Shown here in pieces: positions 52,578 through 56,196 of a DNA stretch of 64,000 bases. The stretch is from positions 1 to 64,000 of the forward strand of contig JAGLOP010000010.1 of the NCBI GenBank assembly GCA_023138835.1. The letters are read 5' to 3'. How positions within the stretch are numbered: the stretch's first letter is position 1; every line of letters begins with the position of its first letter. The position numbers and the translations under genes were made by a program. Under the pieces are notes generated by a model. It made no database searches and had not been told where the DNA came from. It worked only from the letters and a program-made list of their open reading frames with translations. This stretch comes from Arcobacteraceae bacterium (GTDB lineage: Bacteria; Campylobacterota; Campylobacteria; Campylobacterales; Arcobacteraceae).

Positions 52578-53144
52578 TTATTTTTTGTCTTTAATATAAT
52601 CCAACTTAGATATATCCAAAAATTCATTATTTTTAAGGGAAATATTATTTGTAGGAATTGTAACTAAAATATAATTTGAATTTTGACCTATCCAAGAGTT
52701 ATAAAAGTTTTCTTTAGTTACTAGATACTTACCATTGTTTGGGTCTAGTAATAAAACAAAATCTCCTTTAATATTTTGAGCCACTACAAAATGAGGATAA
52801 TCTTTTTTTCTCAAAATTCTAGCAATCACAGGTATAGTAAGTTGTTCAAATATCTCCTTAGTGATTTTATAACCTTTAGCTTTAAAATTATGTTTTGAAG
52901 CAATAGTTTGTAGGTCTAAAAAGTTAATCATATCTGTAGTATTTAAATCTTTAATAATATCTTTTTCTGTTGTATCTAAACCATACATATTAAATAAAGA
53001 TGATATAGCACTAGCACCACAACTTTCTTCAAAAGACTGCTGTGTTACATCTTGATATTTTATCTCTTTAAGTGATTTAACTTTGAAAAATTGTGCATTT
53101 AAAAAAGAGGTAACTAATAATAAGCTAACTAAAATTTGTGCCAT
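52578..53144 (-). CDS. Secreted C39-like (double-glycine type) cysteine peptidase
   Basis: Signal peptide MAQILVSLLLVTSFLNA; QQSFEESCGASAISSLFNMYG (Gln/Cys), YPHFVVAQNIKGDFVLLLDPNNG (His/Asp). Confidence 0.85.
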   Translation of the reverse strand: MAQILVSLLLVTSFLNAQFFKVKSLKEIKYQDVTQQSFEESCGASAISSLFNMYGLDTTEKDIIKDLNTTDMINFLDLQTIASKHNFKAKGYKITKEIFEQLTIPVIARILRKKDYPHFVVAQNIKGDFVLLLDPNNGKYLVTKENFYNSWIGQNSNYILVTIPTNNISLKNNEFLDISKLDYIKDKK

Positions 53145-53980
53145 AATGAGAATGATACCGTACTATCAGGAGTATTTGCACTTGTACCCATCTTTGAATT
53201 AAATGTAAAAGCATTTTTTTCATTAAGATTATATGTCACACCAAATCCTATACTTGATAATATAGTACTATCATTTACAGTTGCACCATCCTCTTCCATC
53301 TTTGTTTGATATGTTTCTTCAAAGCCAAAATTTAAAGATACTTTAGGATTTAAAATTAAGGATAAGTCCAATCCTAAAGTATAACTATCTGGTAGTTTTA
53401 TATTTTTGGTATCTATTGTTCTTTTAAGATTTTGAGTAGTTGAGATAAATATAGTAGATACTAAAGGGTCACTATAATTTTTAAGTGCATATTTTAAATT
53501 ATAACTTTTTAAACTATGTCGTTCTTTTTTAGTTTGGTATGTGGTACTTTGTCCCAATGATGTTTGAAATGTAATATTTGGTTTAAACTCTCCGCCAATA
53601 GTATCTAAGTCATATTTGAACCCTACCCATAAACTATCAAATGAATTACTAGTTTGACTATAGTTACTAGATTGCCCTGCATAAGTTATTCTATCATTTA
53701 TATAGCTACCGCTAAATAATAAATCTATTTTAGAATTATATCCATAAAGTATAGTTTGATTTAATACAGTTTTTCTAGTTTCAGTTACATTTGACCCATC
53801 ATCAAAACTTGACATAGTTGGATATGTATCAAAACTACGAGTATTGTTTGATGTTAAAATATCTAAACTTGTAATAGACCTAATTCCATTATTCTTTTTA
53901 AAGATACTATCTATTGTGATTGCATCTGAAGCATATACTGAATATGCACCTAAAAGTGTTGTTAATATTATTTTTTTCAA
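53129..53980 (-). CDS. Predicted outer-membrane beta-barrel protein
   Basis: Signal peptide MKKIILTTLLGAYSVYA; alternating amphipathic strands; C-terminal ...TVSFSLWHKF; overlaps C39 gene by 16 nt. Confidence 0.75.
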   Translation of the reverse strand: MKKIILTTLLGAYSVYASDAITIDSIFKKNNGIRSITSLDILTSNNTRSFDTYPTMSSFDDGSNVTETRKTVLNQTILYGYNSKIDLLFSGSYINDRITYAGQSSNYSQTSNSFDSLWVGFKYDLDTIGGEFKPNITFQTSLGQSTTYQTKKERHSLKSYNLKYALKNYSDPLVSTIFISTTQNLKRTIDTKNIKLPDSYTLGLDLSLILNPKVSLNFGFEETYQTKMEEDGATVNDSTILSSIGFGVTYNLNEKNAFTFNSKMGTSANTPDSTVSFSLWHKF

Positions 53981-54000: not shown

Positions 54001-54987
54001 TTAAATATGTATGTTTACAGTAGTTTGTTTTTTATTATATTCTTTTAAATCTACAATATGTTCAAGATTTTCATGTGTATATATTTGTTCTAATTCTTTA
54101 GCATCAAAATCAGGATTTATATCAAGTTTGTTCATTAAATTTAACATTATTTTATCTTGTTCAGCTTTATCTTTTTGCATAAATATATCTAATATAAATC
54201 TAAGTACATGATCAAAACTGCTAGTATCTAGTTCAGATGGTATAGTAGTAATTCCAAATTCTTCTAAATGTCTTAAAACTACATTTTTATAATTTTTATC
54301 TGCTTTTGTACTATAAGCTTCTTCCAAAGTCATCTGCCCATCAAAGTTTTTATCTACTTGTAATGTGGTATTTAATTCATCATCTAATGATGTTGCTATG
54401 TCAAATTCTCGATAATTTCTATAATAACCTATTTCTTTTAAATATGCTTTCTCAGATAATGCATAGGTATTGTTTTCTATAATTTTTTCACCAGCAATTA
54501 ATAATTTTTCTTTACCTGTTGTATTTTCTGTTAATGCCATACCTTCTATACCAAAGTCATTATATGTTTTATCATATTCCTCTTCTGTTAAAATACCATC
54601 ACTATTTTTATCTGCATACAAAAAATCTCTTTTATATGCAATATCAGCAAACCAGCCAGATACAAAAGCTTCTGCTTTATTTGTTAATCTTAAAGTGCTA
54701 TCATTATTTTTGATAATATTATCTTCTCCAAATTGAGATTTTAATTTATCCAAAGTCTCTTTTTCCAAAGATACTATAGCAAACTTCTTAGTTACCGGGT
54801 CTGTAAATATTGTAGGTGTTGAATTTTCTGACTTCGTTGTAGTATGATAGACTATATTTTCTACTGTATTAGTTTCTTTTACAGTATCATCAAATGATAC
54901 TTTTTTATCACTTATCTCTTGCGTGGTTTTATTTGTAGCCTTCACATCATAAGATGCAAAGGCTACTCCATGTGTTGATATATACAT
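54001..54987 (-). CDS. EF-hand-like protein without obvious Sec signal
   Basis: Two canonical 12-residue loops: DKNSDGILTEEE and DKNFDGQMTLEE. Confidence 0.75.
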   Translation of the reverse strand: MYISTHGVAFASYDVKATNKTTQEISDKKVSFDDTVKETNTVENIVYHTTTKSENSTPTIFTDPVTKKFAIVSLEKETLDKLKSQFGEDNIIKNNDSTLRLTNKAEAFVSGWFADIAYKRDFLYADKNSDGILTEEEYDKTYNDFGIEGMALTENTTGKEKLLIAGEKIIENNTYALSEKAYLKEIGYYRNYREFDIATSLDDELNTTLQVDKNFDGQMTLEEAYSTKADKNYKNVVLRHLEEFGITTIPSELDTSSFDHVLRFILDIFMQKDKAEQDKIMLNLMNKLDINPDFDAKELEQIYTHENLEHIVDLKEYNKKQTTVNIHI

Positions 54988-54989
54988 TT

Positions 54990-55322
54990 TTATCTATAAT
55001 AGAATCTACTAGTAGATCTATTATATCTCAGCCCTCTTTTATTTGCAGAGCTAAATATTTTATCTGCAAAACTCATTTTTGATTTATATTTTGGTTTTGG
55101 TGTTGGATATAAATATCTTCGAATTTTATTAATACGAGATGCCCAATATCCACGAATATACCATCCTCCATCAGCCTTAACCATATCATCTTTATTCATC
55201 TCTAAACTAGTCCCGACAGATTTACCTGCTGTAGCTAAATTTAGTAAATCATCTTTAGCAACTGTATTTGCCATAATTATACCACTACTTAACAGTAGTC
55301 CTAAAAGTAATTTTCTCATCAC
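54990..55322 (-). CDS. Small cationic secreted protein with Sec signal and double-glycine-like motif
   Basis: MMRKLLLGLLLSSGIIMANTVA signal; EMNKDDMVKADGG followed by a basic, aromatic-rich 57-aa tail. Confidence 0.7.
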   Translation of the reverse strand: MMRKLLLGLLLSSGIIMANTVAKDDLLNLATAGKSVGTSLEMNKDDMVKADGGWYIRGYWASRINKIRRYLYPTPKPKYKSKMSFADKIFSSANKRGLRYNRSTSRFYYR

Positions 55323-55434: not shown

Positions 55435-56196
55435 TTAAATTCTATATATACTTGGATTTACTGCAAATATTTTTTTAAATGTTTTAGAAAAATGACTTTG
55501 TTCATAAAATCCAACCTCATTTGCTATATCTGATAAATCTAAATCTTTATTCTCAATTAACATCTTTTTTGCTTTATTTATTTTTTGATTGATTATAAAT
55601 GCATGTATAGTAAGTCCAAATATATTTTTAAATACTCTGTTGATATAAGCACTATTGTAACCTGTATAAGTTGATACATCATTTATTGATAGATTTTTAT
55701 CAAGATTATCAGTGATATATATTTTTATTATATTTGCAAGTTTATTGTGTTGTTCATTATTTTTATCTCGATAGTTTATATTACAGTATTTTATAAATAT
55801 ATTGGTAATAAATTCAGCTAAATGTTTTTCATAACTTTTTACTTTTGTTTCATTTATTATTTGTTTAAAAAGTGATCTAAAATTGTTATATATTTTTTGT
55901 TCCTTGAGAATATTTATATTTACAGGGATAAAGTCAGTATCATTTCCAAATATTTTATTTTGTATAGATTTACACCAATCAATGTTAAGGTAAATTACAT
56001 AATAGTTTGAAGCTTCTCCATCACCAGTATTTTTAGAACAATGTACCGTATCAGGATTAAATATAGCAAGTTGATTTTGTGAAAGTATTTCTGACGGACA
56101 TGAATTAAAATCTATATTTATTGTACCAGACTCAATAATAGCAATACCTAACATACAATGAGAGTGTTTTGAATAATTTGGGAATAACTTTTTCAT
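55435..56196 (-). CDS. AraC-family transcriptional regulator
   Basis: AraC-type HTH: LSINDVSTYTGYNSAYINRVFKNIFGLTIHAFIINQKINKAKKML...LSDIANEVGFYEQSHFSKTFKKIFAVNPSIYR. Confidence 0.92.
   Translation of the reverse strand: MKKLFPNYSKHSHCMLGIAIIESGTINIDFNSCPSEILSQNQLAIFNPDTVHCSKNTGDGEASNYYVIYLNIDWCKSIQNKIFGNDTDFIPVNINILKEQKIYNNFRSLFKQIINETKVKSYEKHLAEFITNIFIKYCNINYRDKNNEQHNKLANIIKIYITDNLDKNLSINDVSTYTGYNSAYINRVFKNIFGLTIHAFIINQKINKAKKMLIENKDLDLSDIANEVGFYEQSHFSKTFKKIFAVNPSIYRI

Follow-up and report, generated by a model that had tools for sequence, protein, structure and literature searches.

In the Fap system of Pseudomonas, a Sec-targeted C39 peptidase (FapD) and a pore of the FapF fold are encoded in one operon together with Sec-exported substrates. 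FapD is an active periplasmic C39 peptidase that is required for Fap secretion; its target was stated to be unclear, Fap proteins were reported to lack canonical C39 sites, and FapE or FapF was put forward as the substrate of FapD (PMC5557850). Homologues of fapD and fapF are co-located in further phyla (PMC6173800), and in a 2025 review FapD is still 'thought to process' FapE and FapF (PMC12822426). The operon described here, found on the minus strand of the window (the whole stretch of 64,000 nucleotides analysed), has three comparable elements. We consider, with a probability of roughly 0.65, that it exports one small cationic peptide, most likely bacteriocin-like, by way of Sec, the C39 peptidase and a FapF-like pore.

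The precursor gene (54990..55319, minus strand) encodes 109 residues, with the stop codon at 54990-54992. Since the Shine-Dalgarno sequence AAAGGA lies just 5' of the ATG at 55319, this codon is the probable start; the sequence-only reading had placed a small protein here in the correct frame, but its GTG at 55322 is probably one codon early. The Sec signal peptide MRKLLLGLLLSSGIIMANTVA (residues 1-21; 55257..55319, minus strand) consists of MRK, a hydrophobic core and T-V-A, a design also seen in the precursor homologues. It is followed by the propeptide KDDLLNLATAGKSVGTSLEMNKDDMVKADGG of 31 residues (residues 22-52; 55164..55256, minus strand), the C-terminus of which, MNKDDMVKADGG, carries the double-glycine motif, and by the mature cargo of 57 residues (residues 53-109; 54993..55163, minus strand). 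The signal had earlier been quoted as running straight into EMNKDDMVKADGG, whereas 18 residues, KDDLLNLATAGKSVGTSL, intervene and are part of the conserved propeptide; the motif positions given at the same time (M at -12, DD at -9/-8, M at -7, A at -4 and GG at -2/-1) were correct, and the combination of a Sec signal with a double-glycine leader is confirmed. The strongly basic mature region was likewise rightly recognised, as it contains 16 K/R, one acidic residue (D/E) and eight Tyr, with a net charge of at least +15 that none of 3,259 other 57-residue windows from the window's other long ORFs equalled. No Pfam or NCBIfam model matched the precursor above cut-off. A homologue search with the whole precursor (100 relatives) returned leader matches only, apart from one chance helix-hairpin-helix match (G014/L003), and none was found for the cargo outside the leader match. 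Identity as a lipoprotein or a housekeeping Sec protein was rejected.

The precursor gene is the first of the operon and is followed by the partner, the barrel and the C39 gene. Precursor and partner are 2 bp apart, partner and barrel 20 bp, and the last two genes share 16 nt between the C39 start and the barrel stop. The C39 peptidase (52578..53144, minus strand) has a Sec signal and is FapD-like (PF03412, 8.8e-24; FapD model NF058616, E 2e-21), its 76 bits against an equivalog cut-off of 330 indicating a homologue of FapD and not an equivalog. Residues Q36, C42, H118 and D134 are invariant in an alignment of 28 close C39 peptidases, and with its catalytic C/H/D/Q residues intact the enzyme is predicted to be active. 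In the PDB, the C39 alignment profile matched PCAT1, ComA and LahT in their C39 domains. In the genome (86.6% complete), neither a C39 domain besides the operon's own nor a PCAT (C39 fused to an ABC transporter) was found.

The barrel gene (53129..53980, minus strand) encodes a FapF-like outer-membrane β-barrel of 283 residues. Its match to the NCBIfam FapF model is weak (5e-5; 22 bits, with an equivalog cut-off of 700) and the barrel profile matched FapF in the PDB at 1.4e-4; for the structure model (pLDDT 85.7) the 18 best PDB folds were all FapF (TM 0.67-0.76), and the next was the COG4313 channel. The FapF coiled coil is absent, the barrel beginning near residue 32 in the model. In most loci the barrel adjoins the C39 gene, and the 16-nt overlap of the window recurs in L022, L023, L026, L027 and L201. 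The RefSeq name of the FapF-like barrel at L201:3077-3931 and L204:8001-8855 is 'HmcD domain-containing protein', a name that we take to point to haemocin and that suggests a link of the barrel to haemocin export genes; a search of the haemocin/HmcD literature found no paper evidently about it.

The partner (54001..54987, minus strand, 2 bp 3' of the precursor) is a leaderless protein of 328 residues with weak EF-hand matches (PF13202, E 0.0029, below cut-off), and none of the Pfam and NCBIfam models matched it above cut-off. As its structure model is poor (pLDDT 59.9) and the fold matches are only weak EF-hand ones, no function is claimed for it. An AraC-family protein (55435..56196, minus strand; PF12833, 1.3e-19), encoded 115 bp upstream, may possibly regulate the operon; an AraC gene was not seen beside the precursor on the locus map of L022. 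A promoter and terminator scan was not informative, as it gave 32 matches where chance alone would give 35.

In the order, 399 genomes were scanned with the leader and C39 profiles, and genes were read at 48 loci; a single C39 sequence as query had retrieved no related loci, whereas the C39 alignment succeeded. In Campylobacterota loci 65 precursors were found, the window's among them, with 50 distinct leaders. The sequence-only reading had depended on homologues keeping GG and the hydrophobic positions upstream of it, and the leader alignment shows GG in 65/65 precursors and 50/50 distinct leaders, L or M at -12 in all 50, and M at -7 in 30; position -4 is V, I or A in 49 and position -8 is E in 41 of them. 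The window's leader, M-NKD-D-M-VK-A-D-GG, follows the pattern L-x3-E/D-L/M-x2-V/I-x-GG, which the 50 distinct homologous leaders keep. Because the original search model contained GG, the search was repeated with a motif-blind model, the profile of which stops before the GG region, and GG was scored in the expected slot of 10 residues. It was present in 40 of 40 matches compared with 15 of 322 control windows, and in 21 of 21 when only C39-fetched loci were taken and the seed and identical sequences were excluded. Chance occurrence of GG was rejected on the strength of this conservation and of its recovery by the motif-blind model. With a score of 15.9 against a cut-off of 15.7, one homologue (L026) is recognised by TIGR01847, a curated model of bacteriocin leaders that does not match the window's precursor.

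The leader and a close-clade C39 peptidase occur together in 21 of the 399 genomes, the C39 alone in four, the leader alone in three and neither in 371, so that 21/24 leader-bearing genomes have such a peptidase (Fisher p 5e-28, indicative only as the genomes are related). At L023 (G060) the partner, barrel and C39 are present and no precursor was detected, it being either lost or unrecognised. At L024:5730-5815 and L115, the two copies in one genome, the precursor frame is broken at a seven-T run inside the leader; slippage, phase variation or decay are possible.

Comparison of paralogous precursors from one locus revealed that the leaders are mostly 80-100% identical and the mature parts mostly less than 40%. 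In 21 of 22 pairs the DNA was 90-100% identical over the 100 bp that end with GG and 24-51% identical over the 100 bp that follow. Three pairs matched exactly over 343, 362 and 374 bp up to the GG codons, give or take 0-4 bp, beyond which the cargos are unrelated; some of these assemblies are drafts, though L101, L124 and L133 each belong to a different genome. Identity that stops at the GG codons is the pattern expected of cargo exchange behind a fixed leader, and it marks the predicted cleavage site as a functional boundary. A genome can hold up to eight different cargos. At the level of sequence, interchangeable cargo is joined to a conserved leader that serves as a reusable address, and a majority of precursors are paired with a cytoplasmic-looking partner of their own.

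A gene for more than 120 residues comes next on the same strand after 57 of the 65 precursors, nearly always without a signal peptide, and the partners range from about 130 to 515 residues. Alignments place the window's partner in an EF-hand family with those of L022, L023, L025, L120 and L124. The Cj0814 family of 'flagellar-dependent secreted protein' (NF046095) includes the partners of Campylobacter and some Helicobacter loci (L101, L111, L126, L133) and of plasmids, and the EF-hand partner of the window is not recognisably related to it; three partner families compared by profile were not recognisably related to each other. Cargo type and partner type covary, with 52 pairs against 10.5 expected in a test that ignores the relatedness of genomes. 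The flagellar export gene flhA is present in the window's genome, and secretion of partners via flagellar export is possible.

The system occurs in named records including Sulfurimonas, Sulfurospirillum, Helicobacter and Campylobacter, C. coli and C. jejuni among them; it is a predicted peptide-export system, widely distributed in Campylobacter relatives, with many cargos on one conserved leader. The barrel was found on 47 Campylobacter plasmids, 42 of them typed conjugative, and the unit lies on Campylobacter plasmids of 7.1, 7.3 and 10.4 kb with little else besides replication and mobilisation genes; two plasmid precursors were automatically annotated as 'bacteriocin'. In the close Sulfurimonas relative, four cargos are rich in Tyr, Arg, Ser and Gly and look like sticky low-complexity sequence. 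In Helicobacter metagenome genomes (L137:102-760, L145:293-3601) the cargos have only 18-25 residues and are cationic (KFRLKIKNFCIGVFWFCK is one of them), most of them carrying two Cys, and those of L137 are followed by outer-membrane barrels in place of soluble partners.

More distant FapD-like C39 loci of the same order also adjoin Sec-exported proteins with C39-like leaders. A second class with C39 and barrel (L033, L035, L185, L192, L194, L196-L198) has Sec-exported precursors with leaders ending in L-x3-EM-x2-T-x-GE(F/W) and hydrophobic, bacteriocin-like cargos; L195 belongs to it with GK in place of GE. L032 has a C39-like leader of the KGA type. In a third C39 class (L030, L031, L034, L190), 'LxDxxLxxxSAQ-G' leaders are found on small proteins and on N/Q/S-rich proteins of 500-1200 residues, which are DUF6160-like and without the classical Fap repeat. 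On the 6.3-kb Acinetobacter plasmid pTR11_4 (L205:404-970), a Sec precursor with the leader LSNQEMKDTQGA, of the QGA form, is encoded together with a C39 peptidase and part of a barrel, so the design reaches Gammaproteobacteria.

Taken together, Sec would carry the 109-residue precursor to the periplasm, where signal peptidase would remove residues 1-21 and the Sec-targeted C39 peptidase of the operon would cut after GG (residue 52), as leader conservation and gene linkage strongly suggest, to free the Tyr-rich cationic cargo of 57 residues. The fold of the barrel, and its gene lying just before that of the protease, suggest that the cargo exits through the FapF-like pore; the partner may be an immunity protein, a chaperone or a co-secreted protein. 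This route of Sec, periplasmic C39 and FapF-like pore is very probable. The two-step processing proposed in the sequence-only reading thus draws support from the conserved GG and leader pattern, and its choice of the C39 protein as the processing enzyme from the Sec signal, the invariant catalytic residues, the lack of another C39 in the genome and the co-occurrence with the leader; that account is supported as far as it went but did not include the FapF-like barrel as a pore, the partner gene that goes one-to-one with the precursor, or the cassettes of leader and cargo. A GG that is not a protease site at all, within a propeptide acting as a targeting or chaperone segment while C39 acts elsewhere, for instance on the barrel, would fit the proposal made for Pseudomonas FapD (PMC5557850). 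It is nevertheless highly improbable here, since GG, the best-conserved part of the leader, matches the known C39 leader pattern and coincides exactly with the boundary of the DNA cassette.

As the window's cargo has no homologue, its activity is not readable by analogy, and whether it is an antagonistic, bacteriocin-like peptide is close to an even call. Of the three roles offered in the sequence-only reading (antimicrobial, adhesin or amyloid-like), we lean towards antagonism on account of the tiny cationic Cys-paired cargos of L137 and L145, the plasmids of 7-10 kb and the 'bacteriocin' annotations. Against the explanation as a whole count the partners, which exceed the usual size of bacteriocin immunity proteins and in some cases belong to NF046095, the absence of a detectable precursor beside the other three genes in G060, and FapF itself, which as an amyloid pore favours a matrix role. 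A cargo that is a building block of the surface or biofilm matrix, i.e. a functional amyloid or adhesin exported in a Fap-like manner with a true GG leader, would indeed agree with the FapD/FapF-like machinery, the Tyr/Arg/Ser/Gly-rich Sulfurimonas cargos and the large N/Q/S-rich proteins of the distant C39 class. It is the less likely role, though a possible one: no window protein has the Fap repeat, paralogous cargos as wholly different as these would be unusual in a co-assembling fibre, and both the cargos of 18-25 residues and carriage on small plasmids speak against it. Double-glycine leaders also serve peptide pheromones, and with the AraC regulator directly upstream the cargo might be a signalling peptide released in that way, the partner or AraC belonging to the response pathway. 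Such a role seems improbable given the strong cationic charge, an operon without a membrane sensor, up to eight cargos per genome and an L022 precursor without AraC beside it.

An antagonistic peptide exported through Sec, C39 and the FapF-like pore would have named counterparts on Campylobacter plasmids, where genes annotated as 'bacteriocin', 'C39 family peptidase' and 'HmcD domain-containing' (e.g. CP125393.1, NZ_CP043429.1) represent the same system, with precursor, FapF-like barrel, C39 and partner; these names come from automated annotation only, and our literature search found no paper describing the genes as one system. A search with most subscription journals outside its reach likewise found no paper on GG-leader substrates for a FapD/FapF-type pair. 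Through the cassettes a large hidden set of predicted secreted peptides comes to light across Campylobacter, Helicobacter, Sulfurimonas and their relatives, some of them short, cationic and possibly antimicrobial. With the PCAT systems of class II bacteriocins and microcins the operon shares the leader pattern and a homologous C39 fold (PCAT1, ComA, LahT); in contrast to them, it has no ABC transporter, on which ground PCAT-type export was rejected, its precursor is Sec-targeted and its C39 is a separate periplasmic protein with a Sec signal, so that cleavage would follow, not accompany, export across the inner membrane. Compared with Pseudomonas Fap, it lacks FapA, FapE and the FapB/C repeats (GX4NX3GX6N matched none of the five window proteins), and identity as a Fap system was therefore rejected; furthermore, the barrel is without the coiled coil and the substrates are small, with a canonical GG leader. 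In its manner of working it would resemble a Fap-type exporter loaded with precursors of the bacteriocin type. The target of FapD has been published as unresolved, and this operon offers testable canonical candidate substrates: close FapD/FapF relatives travel with small Sec proteins having textbook C39 sites, which makes the substrate question experimentally simple. We think it rather probable that the loci form a previously undescribed, order-wide class that combines Sec, a free periplasmic C39 acting at GG, a FapF-like pore and cargo cassettes that recombine at the cleavage site and have private partners. If so, exporters of the C39/FapF type would make up a wider family, in which the Fap amyloid pathway is one specialised branch.
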